A DNA stretch of 64,000 nt, from positions 23,305 through 87,304 of IMG/VR virus record IMGVR_UViG_3300006921_000009. The stretch is one strand, 5' to 3'. The DNA is from a virus. Position numbers and translations under genes: made by a program. Positions 1 to 25,725 of this stretch are shown here, one piece after another (position 1 is the stretch's first letter; every line of letters begins with the position of its first letter). Under the pieces are notes generated by a model. The model was not told where the DNA came from, searched no databases, and worked only from the letters and a program-made list of their open reading frames with translations.

Positions 1-711
1 ACTAGTATAAGTTGCCTTAGCTGCTTTTTCTTTCTTTTTTGCTGTAATACTATCAATTCTTTCTTGTAGTCCTTCAGGAGCTTTTGTATCTGATGCTAAA
101 CTAAGTTTACAATCCATTAGATATAACATTTCCTCTGTTTGCGTTAAATCTTGTTTGTCTACTTGTGTGATAGGTCCTTTTGCACCTACCCAAGTCTTAG
201 TTGTTTCTTTTTTACCTACAGTAGTCTCTGTACCGCATACTGCAACTTTAGCACACCAATCTTCAACGTTCTTATAGTTTACAATTAAACTTAAATAGTA
301 GTTGTGTTGAGGTGCATTATCATGTAATTCTGCTGTATCTGTACCAGAAAAGTAACAAGCCATATTATGATGTGTATGCAAGTGACCTATCTTACCTCCA
401 GCTTCTAGATGATCCATCCATTGCTCTGTAGCGTAATCGTCCCCAGCTTCCATATCATATTCTGTATATGCACTTGTTCCTATATCCATAAGAATACAAT
501 CATCTACTGATATAACCCATTTATTAGGGTCAGTATCAATAGATCCTTCTTTAGTAGAGTACAATAAAATTGCACTCCACTCTGTGTTTTGTTTAACCTG
601 CTTATGTAAAAAGTTAACTTTATTTACAAAGTTATCTGATAACACTACGCTAGGTGTGTATTTTGTCTTTACTTCCGTTCTTTTTGCTTTTACTTTGCTT
701 AATTTTTCCAT
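1..711 (-). CDS. JAB/JAMM-domain metallopeptidase (C-terminus cut by window edge)
   Basis: The 237 visible codons begin at an ATG nine bases after the stop of the upstream E2-like gene, and the frame runs off the left edge. A JAMM zinc site is readable: Glu44 in EWSAILL, then HTHHNMACYFSGTD with His112, His114, Ser122 and Asp125. That is exactly HxH, ten residues, D. JAMM proteins remove ubiquitin or ubiquitin-like proteins from targets or trim their precursors. No signal peptide is seen, so it should act in the cytoplasm. Residues past about 150 become lysine-rich and are not recognised. Together with the E2-like and beta-grasp-like genes just upstream it suggests a small modifier system. 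It could instead be a stand-alone RadC-like or tail-type JAB peptidase, but the gene neighbourhood argues against that. Confidence 0.75.
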   Translation of the reverse strand, partial: MEKLSKVKAKRTEVKTKYTPSVVLSDNFVNKVNFLHKQVKQNTEWSAILLYSTKEGSIDTDPNKWVISVDDCILMDIGTSAYTEYDMEAGDDYATEQWMDHLEAGGKIGHLHTHHNMACYFSGTDTAELHDNAPQHNYYLSLIVNYKNVEDWCAKVAVCGTETTVGKKETTKTWVGAKGPITQVDKQDLTQTEEMLYLMDCKLSLASDTKAPEGLQERIDSITAKKKEKAAKATYTS

Positions 712-720
712 AATCTTTGT

Positions 721-1926
721 TTATAAAGTTTGGTGTCTGTAATTTCTATTAAATTCATACACAGTATCTAAATAGAGATTAGTTACTGCTAAAATACTTG
801 TATTATCTATATCTATAGTTTCCCAATTGATATTTGGAGCTACTTCTTCACTATCTAGATTAGCTATAACATTATCTAAAGTAATTTCAAAATGGACAGG
901 TTGTCCTCCCCATGTTAAAACCCTATCAGCTTGTTCTGAACCATTAAATGCTTCTGCTTGTGTTATTTTGGCTAAATACCTAGATATAGGGTGGCTAAAT
1001 CCTTCTGAATTATTACTTAAAGGGATAAAATTATAATTAACTTTGTTACCTAGTATAGATGTTAAAAGTCTTCTTTCTACTATTGCATCATCTAATTCCC
1101 ATTGTTCTTTTAGTACTAACCTAAGTGCCGGTACTATAGAATTATTAACATTAGATATTGCTACTGGGTCTCTTCTTGTTGCTCTATTTAAATCAATTCT
1201 ACTATTTATATCTCCTACTATCTCAGGTTGTAGTTCAGGATTTTCTGATAATACCTTTAGTAAACTATTTTTAATACGTTTTTTTACTCTATATTCTTCA
1301 AGTAGCTCCGAACAGCTACCATTATCGTTGTCTTTTTCATGTACTACATTTCTTATATGGTAATAAGGTCCACCACCTATTGATTCCCATACTGCATAAG
1401 TACGTAGCAACAATAAAGTTTCTGTTAAAAGTGATTCTGTAATACCTTCTACTGCCATATGTGTTGTAGCAAAAGCTAATTCGGTACCACCACCTAAACA
1501 CATAGTACGCCATGTAAAATACTCAGTTATATCTCCTCTAGTGCCGCTTCTATTATTGTGTGGATGTGCAAAGCCTAGCATTGCTTCTAATGTAGTAGCA
1601 CTTGTTCTTAGTGCTTTTAATTCTGGAGTAACTAACTTTGAAAAATCATCACTAATAGGTAAAGCTATATGATAATTTGTTATAGTATGGCTATCTCCTC
1701 TTCTGTTTGTAATTGTTCCTTCTGGAATCCTAACAACTAAACGCCAGGTAGGACGTACGTCACTATTATACCTCCAGGCTTCTGTTAAGTTATCTTCACA
1801 TAGCGACAAGTCCCAATCTCCTGGGAATATTGCTTCCGCTACACTTGTTATTAAGTCAATTTTTAGTTGACGTGGATCCTTTTCTTCGCTTACTACTTCT
1901 ATTTCTTCGTTTACTTGTTCTGTCAT
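721..1926 (-). CDS. Putative E2-like (UBC-fold) ubiquitin-like conjugating protein
   Basis: 401 residues. I do not recognise a named family, but the middle resembles a ubiquitin-conjugating E2: strands WRLVVRIPEG and NYHIALPI, then GFAHPH (residues 119-123), then MCLGG with Cys143, then a helix and LLLLRTYAVW..GGGPYYHI. Prokaryotic E2-like proteins carry an HPH...CLG pattern, where the Cys bears the thioester. The 19 residues between HPH and the Cys are longer than in typical E2s, implying an insertion. The C-terminal ~200 residues are unassigned. It sits between the beta-grasp-like and JAMM genes in one leftward operon. No E1-like gene is visible; it would have to lie past the left edge or be supplied by the host. 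The assignment is inferred from motif and context only. Confidence 0.45.
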   Translation of the reverse strand: MTEQVNEEIEVVSEEKDPRQLKIDLITSVAEAIFPGDWDLSLCEDNLTEAWRYNSDVRPTWRLVVRIPEGTITNRRGDSHTITNYHIALPISDDFSKLVTPELKALRTSATTLEAMLGFAHPHNNRSGTRGDITEYFTWRTMCLGGGTELAFATTHMAVEGITESLLTETLLLLRTYAVWESIGGGPYYHIRNVVHEKDNDNGSCSELLEEYRVKKRIKNSLLKVLSENPELQPEIVGDINSRIDLNRATRRDPVAISNVNNSIVPALRLVLKEQWELDDAIVERRLLTSILGNKVNYNFIPLSNNSEGFSHPISRYLAKITQAEAFNGSEQADRVLTWGGQPVHFEITLDNVIANLDSEEVAPNINWETIDIDNTSILAVTNLYLDTVYEFNRNYRHQTL

Positions 1927-1990
1927 AATTAACTTATTAAAAAGAGGAGAGCATTATACCCTCCTCTTATATTATTGGTTTAAATCTTCG

Positions 1991-2113
1991 TTAAGGAGTA
2001 TCCTCAGTTTCTGAAATAATTGCAGGTATTACTACCTTTTTATGCCACTTTAAAATGACATTTTTTAATCTTTTTACCTCAGAGTCAATTTTCTTTTGAT
2101 CTTCAGCTGTCAT
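1991..2113 (-). CDS. Small 40-residue protein between Ubl-like and E2-like genes
   Basis: A 40-codon frame (MTAEDQKKID...) begins one base after the stop of the beta-grasp-like gene. It ends about 65 bases before the E2-like gene. It is highly charged and probably helical, with a short hydrophobic stretch around VVIPAII. No family is recognised. Tight coupling to the preceding stop favours translation, but the length makes it uncertain. Confidence 0.4.
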   Translation of the reverse strand: MTAEDQKKIDSEVKRLKNVILKWHKKVVIPAIISETEDTP

Positions 2114-2114
2114 C

Positions 2115-2354
2115 TTACTTACCAGATTTAATTTTACTTGGTGTTAAGAATACAGAAAACGCTCCTACAGGAAGTACACTGCTGTCAGATGTTAATCCTT
2201 CACGTACACCTCTAATCATTGCTGATGAGTCATTTGCATTAAAAGAACCTTCTGCATTAATTTCTGCTTTAAGCTCTCCCCATACTGTTGCTGCAGATGT
2301 TAATTCTACTCTTACGTCTCCTTGTGGGCTGATAATTGTGATAATTCTGTTCAT
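2115..2354 (-). CDS. Putative ubiquitin-like (beta-grasp) small protein
   Basis: 79 residues. The pattern fits a beta-grasp fold: a strand pair (NRIITIISPQ and DVRVELTS), a helix (TVWGELKAEINAEG), then strands ending in VLPVGAFSVFLTP. It resembles ThiS/MoaD/PRTRC-C-like proteins in size and strand order. The C-terminus is KIKSGK, with no terminal Gly-Gly, so activation would need trimming or use of a different end. The JAMM enzyme in the same operon could do such trimming; that is inference. It lies 14 bases downstream of the lysozyme gene. It could instead be an unrelated small beta protein; a structure prediction would decide. Confidence 0.5.
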   Translation of the reverse strand: MNRIITIISPQGDVRVELTSAATVWGELKAEINAEGSFNANDSSAMIRGVREGLTSDSSVLPVGAFSVFLTPSKIKSGK

Positions 2355-2947: not shown

Positions 2948-3527
2948 TTATTAGGTCTATAGTAAATACTAATTTCCGCTGTTCTGCTGTCTCAACGAAA
3001 TGGTATCTTTTCCTCCCTGACTCTATTACGAAGTCTGGGCTGTCATCTGGAATTATACCACATTCCTGGAGCGCATCCTCAAAGAACTTTTCTAATAACC
3101 ACATATTACTTGCGTCAGGCATGTTACCACGCTTAATTTCATATATATCACAACTGATACTAAAGAATTTTCCTTCAGGTAGTGTGATTGGTGTTAATTG
3201 TTCTTTAATAAACGTACTAAAATACTCATGGTAATACTTTGCAATTGTCTTGCGTAAACGCCAATTTAAAGTTGCATTGTATAAATCTTGACCATTGAGT
3301 ATCCATCTATTCTCTGTGCCTACTTTTTTTGTGTTCTTAACGAACCTGTTCCCCTCTACATCAGCACAATAAGCCTTAGCTCCTCTAGTGAGAGGCTTAG
3401 GGCTTAACTGTGTTGCATATTTTTTAGGGAGTTTTTCCCGGTCCTTCCAAAGCCAGTATTTAGCTCTAGTGTTCTCAGATTTCAAATAACTAGCTTCCCA
3501 ATTGGGAATTGTAACTGTATTTTTCAT
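2940..3527 (-). CDS. Putative RusA-like Holliday junction resolvase
   Basis: 195 residues. The C-terminal half has the RusA signature: PDASNMWLLEKFFEDAL followed by IIPDDSPDFV, matching the D-x-x-N...K...D-x-L...DD pattern whose acidic residues bind metal. RusA enzymes cut four-way junctions made during recombination and replication, which suits the neighbouring primase, polymerase and Sak4-like genes. The N-terminal ~100 residues are basic and aromatic and are not assigned. The gene overlaps the primase by 38 bases and the lysozyme by 8, so the three are probably co-transcribed. Sequence similarity to cellular RusA is low. Confidence 0.6.
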   Translation of the reverse strand: MKNTVTIPNWEASYLKSENTRAKYWLWKDREKLPKKYATQLSPKPLTRGAKAYCADVEGNRFVKNTKKVGTENRWILNGQDLYNATLNWRLRKTIAKYYHEYFSTFIKEQLTPITLPEGKFFSISCDIYEIKRGNMPDASNMWLLEKFFEDALQECGIIPDDSPDFVIESGRKRYHFVETAEQRKLVFTIDLING

Positions 3528-4503
3528 AAATCTCCGTTAAATAATCATTTAATTCTTCTAAACCATACAATTCTGCATAATCTGATGCATCTTTAGTACC
3601 TTCTGGCATAAAGAATACAGGTAAACTATGTTGTCCTGCTAACTTAGCAGCTGCAACTTTACCTGGTTCATCGTTATCATACAGTAACATCACGCTCTCA
3701 AACCGCTCTCTAAGATTGGTTACTAAGTTTGGTGATATTGTGTTTGATTCTGCTTGTGGTGCTACAGCAGGGATTTCTAATTGCGATAATACCGCAACAT
3801 CCTTTAATGACTTAGTAATAATTACTAAATCTCCATTTGCTTGTAGTTGTGACCAACCCTGTATAATATTTTCAGGGCAATTACTTCTCCATTTCAACTT
3901 TTTGTCTGCGTATGGTTGATAAATCTTCCATGCTTCTCTTTTGTCAGGTAATAATCCATTAAAATAGCCATACACATTACTACCACAGGCAGTATATACG
4001 CTATTAATGAAAAAACCAGACAGAGGATAAATATTAAATTTCTCTAAAGTTGCTGAATGTAAACCATATTTGTCATACCAGTATTCCTTATCGTTTTGGT
4101 TAAACTTACGTGTACAAACACGTATATCTACTACTTGTTCTGGAATATCTGTAATATTAAAATTTGATTTACTAACGGCTACCCTATCATTTGATAAGGT
4201 AACCGTAGACAATAAATTTAGATTAAAATCTCTGTTTACCATTTCTAAAGCCTGTATAAACGTAACTCCGTACTTTGTCTGAATATAATCAAAACAATCT
4301 CTTGTTTCTTGTTCAGAAAAATCTTTGTAAATTAGTTTATCCCCTGCTTTACATATACTGCAAGTAGGGTTTTTATCATTCCTTATTTCACTTCTAAAAG
4401 TTGCATAAAGTTTATTAAATGGACTACAGTAACTGTTAAATATGTCAAACTGATTGACTTTTTCCAATACATTAGCTTTGGTTAAGGGTTTCCTTACATC
4501 CAT
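3490..4503 (-). CDS. DnaG-type primase with Toprim domain
   Basis: 337 residues. Makes RNA primers for DNA synthesis. The N-terminal third has a degenerate zinc-binding region (FRSEIRNDKNPTCSICKAGD...YKDF) as in phage primases. A Toprim core follows at about residues 225-300: DLVIITKSLKDVAVL (motif I) and VMLLYDNDEPGKVAAAKLA (DxD motif). The usual motif I glutamate is replaced: where most Toprim proteins read VEGEKD, this reads TKSLKD. The DxD aspartates are kept. It lies in the replication operon between an unassigned gene (possible SSB) and the RusA-like gene. Confidence 0.8.
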   Translation of the reverse strand: MDVRKPLTKANVLEKVNQFDIFNSYCSPFNKLYATFRSEIRNDKNPTCSICKAGDKLIYKDFSEQETRDCFDYIQTKYGVTFIQALEMVNRDFNLNLLSTVTLSNDRVAVSKSNFNITDIPEQVVDIRVCTRKFNQNDKEYWYDKYGLHSATLEKFNIYPLSGFFINSVYTACGSNVYGYFNGLLPDKREAWKIYQPYADKKLKWRSNCPENIIQGWSQLQANGDLVIITKSLKDVAVLSQLEIPAVAPQAESNTISPNLVTNLRERFESVMLLYDNDEPGKVAAAKLAGQHSLPVFFMPEGTKDASDYAELYGLEELNDYLTEIYEKYSYNSQLGS

Positions 4504-16542: not shown

Positions 16543-17898
16543 TTATTTTACAACTACAAACTTCTCTGATACACCATTAGCGTATACTTTAATAAGCATA
16601 ACGTTTTTTGGTAAATTATCAGTTGGAATCAATTGTCCCATTGTATTGTAAACTTTGAATGGTCCTTGACCTATAGTAATTTCCTCTTCTTCAATACCTG
16701 CACAATCTTGTACATCTATGTAGACTGTCAAAAACTCTGTACATCCATTAGTCATAGCTAATTCCAAAACGAATTGCGTATCTTCAGTATATGTAGAGTC
16801 TCCAAAGACTACTTCAAAACAATCAGTAACAGATTCTTGAGTGTAAACATTATCATTAATTGTTAAATCTAACGTTACAATAGAATCACATCCTGCTGCA
16901 TTTGTTGTAGTATAAGTTGTAGTGTCATTGGATGCTGTATAAGTAATTCCATCAATCCAAGTATATTCTCCACAAGCCGTAACTACATCTATTGATGTTG
17001 TTGAATTGTTGATAGTTAAATCCAAAAGGATTATTGAATCACAACCCGCAGCATTTGTAGTTGTCCATTCTACTTGGTCAGTTGAAGCAGTATAAGTGTT
17101 TCCATCTACCCAAGTAAAAGAATCACAAGCTTCCTGTACATCTATAGAATAAGTATTCGTACACGGTTCAGCACAAGTTAAAGAGATAGCAAAGTCTCCT
17201 TGAGCAATACCATATCCACCAACTGAAATCTTATATTCAGCACCAGCTGTAGTAGGCATTGTAAGTTGAGAACTACTTGTCCCACAGGCAGTAAAGTTAT
17301 CATCATTAGCTGCAACTTGATTTCCCGCACAAGCATCATATACTCTTAAATAAGTATCAAAAGATGACCCGCATAAAGAAACAGTAGCTTCAGTACCAGT
17401 TCCTATGAAAGAGTACCAAACGTCTTCCCCGGAGTTAGTACTAGAACCCCCAAAACCAGAAGCAGTAGCATTGAATGTAGTTCCTGTTTCAGAATCTCCA
17501 CATTCAAGAAGAATAGCATCTGTACAGTTATCATTTGCAGGTGCAGGAGTTCCTATACATCCGTAACCGAATGTGTTTGAGTTATCTGCTCCTGAAGTTA
17601 ATTCAGTACCGTCACTTGCTAATGCAATAGACCAAGAATTCTCATAAGAATAAGACCCAGCAGTATAAATTACATCTATACATCCTGACAAATCAAAACA
17701 TAAGTCATAAGTAACACTTTCTGTGCCATTTCCTGGGACCCAAAGACCAATTCCGTCGTAATCTACACCATCTATTGTTAAAGAACCTCCGTTCCACGTA
17801 TCTCCGTATGAATCAGTTAAAGTTAGGGTTACATCAGTACATTGGCTGTAAGATGCAGAGCTCAGCATTAGAGCTATTGCTATAATTGTTGTTTTCAT
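16543..17898 (-). CDS. Secreted repeat protein with type IX secretion-like C-terminal domain
   Basis: 451 residues. A Sec signal peptide (MKTTIIAIALMLSSASYSQ) is followed by a beta-rich region, a domain at about 120-245 like those of Bacteroidota surface proteins (NDNCTDAILLECGDS...DVWYSFIGTG), and two ~46-residue repeats (about 250-343), each with AC-x2-[FY]TW and NAAGCDSI. The last 40 residues (FKVYNTMGQLIPTDNLPKN...LIKVY...KFVVVK) match the pattern of type IX secretion C-terminal sorting domains, which direct cargo through the host outer membrane to the surface. No enzyme motif. It has its own terminator and lies beside lipoprotein genes. Such a cargo in a phage is unusual; surface masking, receptor blocking or adhesion are possible roles. 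Confidence 0.8.
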   Translation of the reverse strand: MKTTIIAIALMLSSASYSQCTDVTLTLTDSYGDTWNGGSLTIDGVDYDGIGLWVPGNGTESVTYDLCFDLSGCIDVIYTAGSYSYENSWSIALASDGTELTSGADNSNTFGYGCIGTPAPANDNCTDAILLECGDSETGTTFNATASGFGGSSTNSGEDVWYSFIGTGTEATVSLCGSSFDTYLRVYDACAGNQVAANDDNFTACGTSSSQLTMPTTAGAEYKISVGGYGIAQGDFAISLTCAEPCTNTYSIDVQEACDSFTWVDGNTYTASTDQVEWTTTNAAGCDSIILLDLTINNSTTSIDVVTACGEYTWIDGITYTASNDTTTYTTTNAAGCDSIVTLDLTINDNVYTQESVTDCFEVVFGDSTYTEDTQFVLELAMTNGCTEFLTVYIDVQDCAGIEEEEITIGQGPFKVYNTMGQLIPTDNLPKNVMLIKVYANGVSEKFVVVK

Positions 17899-23908: not shown

Positions 23909-24226
23909 ATGACTGAGATTAAAACAGGATACCCAACAGTATTCGGAGGAGACGTAGTAATTGCTAACCCAGCAACAAAAGAGAAAGGTGCTAAAATAGA
24001 TGAGGAAGCATCTAAGTTACCTAACAAAGAGAAAGAGGCATTTCTAGCTACAGTATTGGCTAAAATGTGGGGAGAGATTGAAATCATTGCAGTTGCAGCT
24101 GATTGTGCACGTTTTGTTGCAGGTGATATCGCTTTAGGTACACCTGAATCAATGAAGGGAGCAACAGTTACACCAGATGGTCAATATCTTATTGTAAACG
24201 AAAGAACATTTAAAGGTAAATGGTAG
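23909..24226 (+). CDS. GroES-like co-chaperonin (divergent)
   Basis: 105 residues. The order of features matches GroES: GGDVVIANPATKEKG at the start, WGEIEIIAVAADCARFVAGDIALG in the middle (GroES: GEVLAVG...VKVGDIVIF) and DGQYLIVNERTFKG at the end (GroES: EEVLIMSESDILA). The canonical mobile-loop GGIVL is absent; the stretch KIDEEASKLPNKEKEAF occupies that place. It overlaps the GroEL-like gene by 7 bases, a coupling typical of groES-groEL. T4 gp31 is a precedent for a phage co-chaperonin. Identity rests on pattern and neighbour. Confidence 0.65.
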   Translation: MTEIKTGYPTVFGGDVVIANPATKEKGAKIDEEASKLPNKEKEAFLATVLAKMWGEIEIIAVAADCARFVAGDIALGTPESMKGATVTPDGQYLIVNERTFKGKW

Positions 24227-25725
24227 GAGATTTTGTAACCATCTTAAAAGGAGAGGAGGTTCGTGCCAAATTATTAGAAGGTAGTACGGAGGCAGCTGAT
24301 GCTGTCTCTACTACTTTTGGACCTTATGGTAAAAACGTGGCAATCACTATGAAGTACAATGTACCTGTAGTGACAAAGGATGGTGCAACAGTAGCAGGGT
24401 ATATTAAGTTAAGAGACCAGGCTAAGAATGTAGCAGCACAATTAATTAACCAAGCAGCAAATGAGACTGCTAAGATTGCAGGTGACGGTACTACTAGTAC
24501 TACAGTATTAACTAAAGGTCTTGTTGAGAGAGCTTTTAAATTAATTTCTACTGGTGTTCAGCCTATGCAACTAAAAAGAGATCTACTAGCTGTACAACCT
24601 ATAGTGTTAAGTGAGTTAGCTAAGATGAGTTCTCCAGTAGGACCAACCAGTATTAAATCAATTGCTCTTGTAGCCTGTAATGGTGATGACGCAATGGCTG
24701 AATTAGTTACTGAAGCTTTTTCTGTAGTAGGAGAAGGAGGTCACGTTACTGTAGCAGACTCACGTAGCTATGAAACTACACTAGATGCAACAGACGGTAT
24801 TAAATTAGATCGTTCACATATCTTGCCTTCATTAGCAGGTGGTAGAACAAACATAAGACATAAAGACTGTAAGATTGCAGTACTAGATATGGATATTACA
24901 ACTGCAGAAGATGCATTGACTATCTTAGGTGTCCAGGAAGAACTTGGTAATCCTTTATTAGTTATTTGTAATGACCTAACGGGTGCAGCAGCAGAAGTTA
25001 TAGCATTTAATAAAGAGAAGCATAAAATTGCCCTTGAGGTGATACGTGCTCCTTTCATTGCGGAAGCAAGAAAAGAGGCGTGCATTGATCTGGCATGCGT
25101 TGCTGGCGCAACGCTTTTGAGTAAGCAAGCAGGTTGGGAAGTATCTGACTTTCAAGCTACACACTGTGGTAGTTCTGAAAGCGTTGAGATGACTTTAAAG
25201 GAAACGAACATTATTGGAAGACTCGGTAATGAGGAAGAGATCGCAAAGAGAGTATCGTTTTACGAAGATAAGATAGCAGAGGACAAAGAAGGACTAGGAG
25301 ATAACTATAAGAAAAGGTTAGCTTTCTTTACTTCAGGTGCAGCTGTTATTTATGTAGGAGGATCAAATGAAACAGAAGTTGGAGAAAAGAAGACTAGAAT
25401 TGATGATACAATCCGTGCAGTACGTAGTGCTATGGAAGAAGGATTCGTTACCGGTGGTGGATTGACTTATGGTCGCCTGGCAATCGGAGACCTAGCGAAG
25501 AAGTCTACGGAAGGAGCAGCAATACTATCAGAAGCTTTAGCTGACATTGTAAATGTTATTCTAAGTAACTCTGGTATTGTTACACCGGCTCAGCATAAAG
25601 AAAGTGTAGAGACGTTAAACATTATAGATCCAACGTTAGTAATTAAATCAACAATCACGAATGCAATTGGCGCAGCCACTATGATATTCACAACAGATTG
25701 TATAGTAATTAGAGAGGAAGATTAA
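24220..25725 (+). CDS. groEL: GroEL-like chaperonin (Hsp60)
   Basis: 501 residues, against 548 in E. coli. It aligns from the first residue. Key motifs are kept: FGPYGKNV, VVTKDGATVA (Asp54, equivalent to D52), AGDGTTSTTVL (Asp89, equivalent to D87), the D398 region IDDTIRAVRSAMEEGFVTGGG, and IVTPAQHKE. The C-terminal GGM tail is missing (ends IVIREED) and the apical domain is divergent (LDRSHILPSLAGG...APFIAEARKEAC). It should form an ATP-driven folding chamber with the GroES-like partner. It sits upstream of terminase, portal and capsid genes in the late operon, suggesting folding of virion proteins. Confidence 0.92.
   Translation: MVGDFVTILKGEEVRAKLLEGSTEAADAVSTTFGPYGKNVAITMKYNVPVVTKDGATVAGYIKLRDQAKNVAAQLINQAANETAKIAGDGTTSTTVLTKGLVERAFKLISTGVQPMQLKRDLLAVQPIVLSELAKMSSPVGPTSIKSIALVACNGDDAMAELVTEAFSVVGEGGHVTVADSRSYETTLDATDGIKLDRSHILPSLAGGRTNIRHKDCKIAVLDMDITTAEDALTILGVQEELGNPLLVICNDLTGAAAEVIAFNKEKHKIALEVIRAPFIAEARKEACIDLACVAGATLLSKQAGWEVSDFQATHCGSSESVEMTLKETNIIGRLGNEEEIAKRVSFYEDKIAEDKEGLGDNYKKRLAFFTSGAAVIYVGGSNETEVGEKKTRIDDTIRAVRSAMEEGFVTGGGLTYGRLAIGDLAKKSTEGAAILSEALADIVNVILSNSGIVTPAQHKESVETLNIIDPTLVIKSTITNAIGAATMIFTTDCIVIREED

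Follow-up and report, generated by a model that had tools for sequence, protein, structure and literature searches.

The stretch of DNA analyzed here (the window, 64,000 nucleotides) corresponds to G000:C1:23305-87304 of an 87,304-base virus record, and DNA to the left of position 1 is therefore also readable. The source phage is crAss-like, with a major capsid protein that is 41% identical over 99% to those of Steigviridae phages, for example, crAss001. Near the left edge of the window, and continuing beyond it, lies a leftward operon that encodes, in order, a ubiquitin-like protein (Ubl; 79 amino acids), a tiny ORF (40), an E2-like protein (401), a JAB/JAMM metalloprotease (434), an E1/ThiF-like protein (240), and the product of a fifth gene (Table 1). 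The three adjacent leftward ORFs from which the first-pass annotation had proposed a ubiquitin-like cassette are all in place on the minus strand. It had seen no E1, and this is a window-edge effect: reading the genome to the left of position 1 for a ThiF/E1-like gene, as had been suggested, finds one (PF00899, 1.9e-16; ThiF family), which shares 25 nt with the 3' end of the JAMM gene. In the source phage, a lysozyme gene lies directly upstream of the Ubl gene and an amidase gene downstream from the fifth gene, so that lysis-type genes bracket the cassette.

Table 1. Coordinates of the cassette, its neighbors, and other loci mentioned in the text (plain positions are those of the window; G000:C1 positions are those of the virus record; L numbers denote individual loci)
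Feature	Position	Strand	Remarks
Putative Ubl precursor, 79 aa	2115..2354	-	Tail ..SKIKSG, then K; Gly78 codon 2121-2123
Small ORF, 40 aa	1991..2113	-	ATG one nt after Ubl stop
E2-like protein, 401 aa	721..1926	-	H121-P-H123 codons 1558-1566; C143-L-G145, Cys codon 1498-1500
JAB/JAMM metalloprotease	1..711	-	N-terminal 237 of 434 aa inside window
JAMM residue codons	E44 580-582; H112 376-378; H114 370-372; S122 346-348; D125 337-339
Full JAMM/JAB gene, 434 aa	G000:C1:22711-24015	-	Window edge cuts ORF
E1/ThiF-like, 240 aa	G000:C1:22013-22735 (L002:12013-12735)	-	Left of window; catalytic-type C186
Fifth conserved gene, 362 aa	G000:C1:20875-21963 (L002:10875-11963)	-	Outside window, after E1
DNA primase	3490..4503	-	phrog_12622 1.4e-45; conserved upstream neighbor anchoring slot
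Lysozyme	2369-2947
Amidase	L002:10091-10864
451-aa protein	16543-17898	-
GroEL-type chaperonin	24220-25725		Cpn60, 4e-42
Spore photoproduct lyase-like radical SAM protein	L002:3058-3891 (G000:C1:13058-13891)		2.7e-14
Slot loci	NC_021806 20971-28370 (L135); NC_055878 78637-87610 (L138); MT774389 18138-25437 (L137)
Stand-alone 82-aa protein, cr116_1	L137:20299-20547
Split JAB, Fpv1	L005:10056-12348
E1-like and 892-aa proteins, PhiXhv-12	L090:1714-5088

The 79-residue protein, described earlier as beta-grasp-like, is predicted to have the ubiquitin fold of a beta-grasp modifier. Its AlphaFold2 model (pLDDT 83) has the element order strand-strand-helix-strand-strand (E-E-H-E-E), and the nearest solved structures found with Foldseek are ubiquitins, the top one being that of Caldiarchaeum subterraneum (TM about 0.7). 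It is true, as had been remarked, that the protein lacks Gly-Gly; however, it carries a single glycine one residue before the C terminus, and this Gly78 is invariant in 70 of 70 Ubls, in the context [KR]-[SA]-G, and is never the last residue. It is followed by one residue in six phages (K, K, F, I, I, and E), by three in one, and by 52-267 in the other 63. With an invariant Gly78 that is nowhere terminal, the Ubl resembles ubiquitin-like precursors whose glycine has yet to be exposed by a protease. Atg8/LC3 needs only one terminal glycine, as does the conjugation of bacterial cGAS (PMC10097602), and the BilA precursor is processed by its JAB (PMC11354881).

Two observations show the part behind the Ubl glycine to be a separate module: it stands alone in cr116_1, and some phages with a short Ubl have a separate small ORF in its place. 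In cr116_1, the first part of the extension forms a stand-alone 82-aa protein without a Ubl (6e-9), the start of which matches the stretch directly behind the Ubl glycine. In the source phage and in loci L008 and L071, a separate small ORF starts at the Ubl stop or one base after it; the 40-aa ORF of the source phage sits where relatives have the fused extension, and in L008 the homologous ORF and the Ubl stop overlap (TAATG). The Ubl-extension fusions have a natural parallel in ubiquitin fused to ribosomal proteins. A candidate lone Ubl in cr116_1 was rejected, the ORF being the extension module without the Ubl part.

The JAMM pattern read in the metalloprotease by the first-pass annotation is there as claimed (E44...H112-x-H114-x7-S122-x2-D125, matching the signature E-x(n)-H-[ST]-H-x7-S-x2-D), and its five residues are invariant in 56 of 56 JAB homologs, far beyond chance. 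Prok-JAB is matched weakly by 51 of these 56 (best 1.9e-4), and the score of the source-phage protein lies under the Pfam gathering cut-off. The E1 has a Rossmann adenylation domain, in which the nucleotide-binding residues are invariant, as is C186 (63 of 63 members); GxGG, D66, N72, K87, and D127 are conserved; the nearest PDB sequences are UBA5 (2.9e-11), MccB, UBA6, SAE2 (of the SUMO E1), and Cap2 (1.5e-5). In the N-x-x-R-Q motif, Gly replaces Arg in 61 of 63 members, and adenylation may be atypical or impaired through this substitution. Unusual chemistry had been expected for want of an E1 and of a terminal glycine, and both of these supposed oddities disappear.

The 401-residue protein contains the HPH (121-123) and CLG (Cys143) motifs that had been pointed out in it: C143 and G145 are each kept in 71 of 72 homologs and H123 in 70 of 72, with C143, the candidate catalytic residue, the only well-conserved cysteine column. 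In most members, H123 precedes C143 by 12-21 residues, and the C-x-G motif is followed about 37 residues further by W-E-S-x-x-G-x-P. The N-terminal domain is modeled by AlphaFold2 with high confidence in the order a-b-a-b-b-b-a-[HPH]-a-b-C-a-a, a predicted arrangement compatible with UBC. Of the two folds anticipated at first reading, the ubiquitin fold of the 79-residue protein is borne out by its model, whereas the 401-residue model gave no significant match to UBC, or to any other structure, in a Foldseek search of the PDB; among viral models, significant matches came solely from crAss-like phages and from unnamed proteins. Pfam found no E2 family in any of the 61 E2-like proteins, and hhalign gave no signal between the family and PRTRC-B, Prok-E2_A, or Prok-E2_B; the latter result carries little weight because known prokaryotic E2 families also miss each other in the same test. 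The tentative label "E2-like" reflects the invariant His/Cys pattern, the succession of predicted helices and strands, and the neighboring genes, and a carrier enzyme is the likely role.

In viral contigs, relatives of the cassette were reached only with alignments. A nucleotide search of phages, a tblastn search of phages with the source-phage E2-like protein, and single-sequence scans of viral contigs with the JAB and E2-like proteins gave no match; members of the E2-like family are only about 20% identical, so tblastn came back empty and HMMs were required. An alignment-guided scan of IMG/VR, from which the best 80 of 153 relatives were kept, showed with iterated HMMs that the order Ubl, E2-like, JAB, and E1 holds for every locus that no contig end truncates, and the fifth gene directly follows E1 in most loci. 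The trio, the absence of which from related phages would have spoken against the original proposal, is thus present together with E1 in every related locus that is long enough. These loci were fetched via the JAB gene, and co-occurrence is therefore conditional on JAB, but independent E1 and Ubl searches agree. The same cassette is carried by Flavobacterium FpV phages and by crAss-like phages of the Steigviridae, including crAss001, where gp79 and gp78 are annotated as hypothetical, gp77 as a metalloprotease domain protein, gp76 as ThiF, and gp75 as hypothetical (the cassette being gp79-gp76). By tblastn of phage records, JAB relatives occur in 74 (29 Flavobacterium, 29 Bacteroides, 12 uncultured, and a few others), Ubl matches in 29 Flavobacterium phages, and E1 relatives in 78, of which four are unrelated Xanthomonas/Erwinia jumbo phages; without these, the JAB and E1 counts agree.

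The family is essentially viral, given that only two relatives turned up among the genomes of 84,980 prokaryote species (one genome each), one of them amid phage replication genes and the other on a short contig with a primase. Carriers span two deep capsid lineages, the source phage and Steigviridae at about 40% identity and the FpV phages at about 24%. The distances of the four cassette proteins correlate (r 0.78-0.90; no permutation out of 1000 reached such values). This is consistent with joint inheritance of the four, but the correlation may only reflect whole-genome descent. Fpv1 has its JAB gene in two separate ORFs, with an endonuclease gene on the opposite strand between them, and FpV4 has it intact. 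Among the jumbo phages, Xanthomonas phage PhiXhv-12 encodes an E1-like protein and, next to it, a Cys-rich protein of 892 aa that contains HPH...LCLG, possibly a second phage pair of E1 and E2-like proteins; the E1 of Erwinia phage Ep032 is similar to that of PhiXhv-12.

In 80 of 84 loci examined, the cassette has a DNA primase gene upstream, often with a uracil-DNA glycosylase (UDG) gene adjoining, and in the Steigviridae records examined the cassette sits between the two. Three Steigviridae genera differ in what this slot holds, two having an amidoligase/COOH-NH2-ligase cassette and one rIIA/rIIB-like genes. For instance, Cellulophaga phage phi14:2 has genes there for a gamma-glutamyl cyclotransferase, an ATP-grasp ligase, a COOH-NH2 ligase, a glutamine amidotransferase, and an amidoligase, and its genome (all but about 420 terminal bases) contains no Ubl, E2-like, JAB, or E1 gene; a scan of the slot region of cr108_1 shows a similar amidoligase set. 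In cr116_1, the slot contains genes annotated as rIIA- and rIIB-like, and a fragment of a GHKL ATPase there agrees with rIIA. The rIIA/rIIB genes are classically associated with exclusion resistance. This pattern suggests that the contents of the slot are exchangeable modules for host takeover or anti-defense, and it fits such a role better than virion maturation.

Several known systems resemble the cassette. PRTRC systems, which we take to be the type 6d operons (Iyer et al. 2006), share with it a separate Ubl with a conserved C-terminal Gly, an E2-like protein with C-x-G, a JAB, a ThiF, and a fifth protein (PMC1779556), and the E1 profile aligns with PRTRC ThiF (hhalign probability 96%; TIGR03736 matched by all 48 E1 members). 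In contrast, the PRTRC E2 is without the upstream His and the PRTRC JAB has an N-terminal a+b domain; the source-phage E1 stays below the PRTRC_ThiF cut-off (38 bits vs. 144.75 for TIGR03736), and NCBIfam PRTRC models do not match its Ubl, E2-like, or JAB protein. Bil (BilABCD) likewise comprises four separate parts (Ubl, E2, E1, and JAB), with a DUB that processes the Ubl precursor (PMC11354881). However, its defining features, a tandem BilA with two Ubl domains, a BilD E1 with an inactive and an active adenylation domain, and a BilB with CEHH, in which His comes after Cys (PMC11354881), are not found here; the phages have one Ubl domain, one compact, single-domain E1 of about 230-240 aa, and HSH before Cys with C-x-G, and Bil is a bacterial anti-phage system, whereas this cassette is carried by phages.

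CBASS Cap2/Cap3 is similar in its E1 chemistry, as predicted for the phages, its JAB isopeptidase, and the sufficiency of a single C-terminal Gly (PMC10097602), but in the phages E1 and E2 are unfused, so that the Cap2 E2-E1 fusion of type II CBASS is lacking, a dedicated Ubl is present, and no CD-NTase was seen in the annotated neighborhoods examined; E1 and JAB weakly match the PADLOC E1-E2 and JAB models. The lambda-type pair of TAPI (Ubl) and TAPK (JAB) likewise combines a phage Ubl and a JAB, which may cleave the Ubl at a Gly (PMC1779556), although it has no E1 or E2 and belongs to a tail module rather than a replication module. The amidoligase/COOH-NH2-ligase cassettes of phi14:2 and cr108_1 occupy the same primase-UDG slot and are predicted to form amide or peptide links, with unrelated enzymes. 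Because the tested defining features of Bil, PRTRC, and CBASS are absent, we file the cassette under none of them; it would work like Bil or PRTRC, and we regard it as a new form of prokaryotic ubiquitin-like system, one carried by phages.

The gene content and order, the invariant active sites, the Ubl fold, the co-inheritance, and the slot exchange together support the ubiquitin-like cassette interpretation of the first-pass annotation, and the locus is probably a phage-specific ubiquitin-like conjugation operon made up of a Ubl precursor, an E2-like protein, a JAB, an E1, and a fifth protein. We infer its chemistry, the part of JAB as processing protease, and the targets as follows. The Ubl would be made as a precursor in which ..K-S-G is followed by one residue (here Lys) or by an extension, and JAB would cut after Gly78, in a manner comparable to ubiquitin-ribosomal-protein fusions or Atg8/LC3 processing, to release the free tag and, where relatives have the extension (as many do), also a C-terminal module independent of it. 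E1 would then adenylate Gly78 and take up the tag as a thioester on Cys186, from which it would pass to Cys143 of the E2-like protein and be placed on amines of host or phage proteins in early or middle infection; JAB could also remove the tag from its target.

The position of the cassette in the replication block and its exchange with rII-like or amidoligase genes favor host takeover or counter-defense, and we regard a role in host takeover or anti-defense as the most likely. A broader reading, which we consider possible rather than probable, is that crAss-like phages need covalent amide-linked tagging and that the primase slot supplies it interchangeably, as a ubiquitin-type pathway in most Steigviridae and FpV phages, as amidoligase, ATP-grasp, and COOH-NH2-ligase genes in phi14:2 and cr108_1, and as rIIA/rIIB-like genes in cr116_1, so that the phages would turn a ubiquitin of their own against the host.

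Counter-defense could also take a narrower form, in which the proteins act against Bil or CBASS Cap2/Cap3: JAB would strip host conjugates, and Ubl, E1, and the E2-like protein would poison or outcompete the host pathway without a substrate of their own. Bil-like systems do occur in Bacteroides (PMC12135933), JAB matches CBASS JAB models (2.3e-4), and the slot also hosts rIIA/rIIB-like genes, but we consider this unlikely, as distant phages strictly conserve all four active sites and the cleavable tail, which implies that the cycle works autonomously, whereas a decoy would tolerate the loss of parts.

It is also quite improbable that the genes form a sulfur-carrier system of the ThiS/MoaD-ThiF-JAB type, with a thiocarboxylated Ubl as sulfur donor for a nucleotide, a tRNA, or a small molecule and the 401-aa protein as the sulfur acceptor enzyme. 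Operons of JAB, ThiS, and ThiF for sulfur transfer exist (PMC1779556), and ThiF models are matched by all 48 E1 members (best 7.3e-21); however, the source-phage E1 reaches no ThiF-type equivalog cut-off (49.9 bits vs. 159), the annotated genes of the relatives examined include no rhodanese or sulfur donor, the single Gly with further residues is unlike ThiS/MoaD, and a partner with an invariant Cys in an HSH..CxG site better suits a carrier. Least probable is maturation of phage replication or virion factors, with the Ubl fused to the extension as a chaperone-like tag that is cut off, and E1 and the E2-like protein re-using the freed Ubl locally: many Ubls are fused to the extension found alone in cr116_1 and the cassette lies within the replication block, but the source phage and others have retained all the enzymes although they have lost the fusion, with one residue left after the glycine.

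The best-studied bacterial ubiquitin-like systems, Bil and CBASS, defend against phages, and a full set kept by phages would reverse this picture: viruses would run a ubiquitin-type pathway of their own in bacteria, as Bil and CBASS in mirror image. Sequence records do not reveal the pathway because its genes are named thiamine biosynthesis, metalloprotease, or hypothetical in GenBank (one is called "E1 enzyme family protein"), and PHROGs lists the cassette families as of unknown function. Ubiquitin goes unmentioned in the papers on crAss-like phages that were examined, and word searches of open-access literature gave no report that joins these phages with a ubiquitin-like pathway; there may be an earlier mention in subscription literature. 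The family includes crAss001, an abundant human-gut virus and cultured model gut phage to which the source phage is related, and the question is directly testable, since laboratory culture is possible for crAss001, DAC15, and the FpV phages of Flavobacterium.

Three further genes of the source phage deserve mention. One encodes a 451-aa protein that apparently has a signal peptide and whose tail is similar to a type IX secretion sorting domain, and Pfam gave no match for it; another a spore photoproduct lyase-like radical SAM protein; and the third a phage-encoded GroEL-type chaperonin, which phi14:2 also has annotated.
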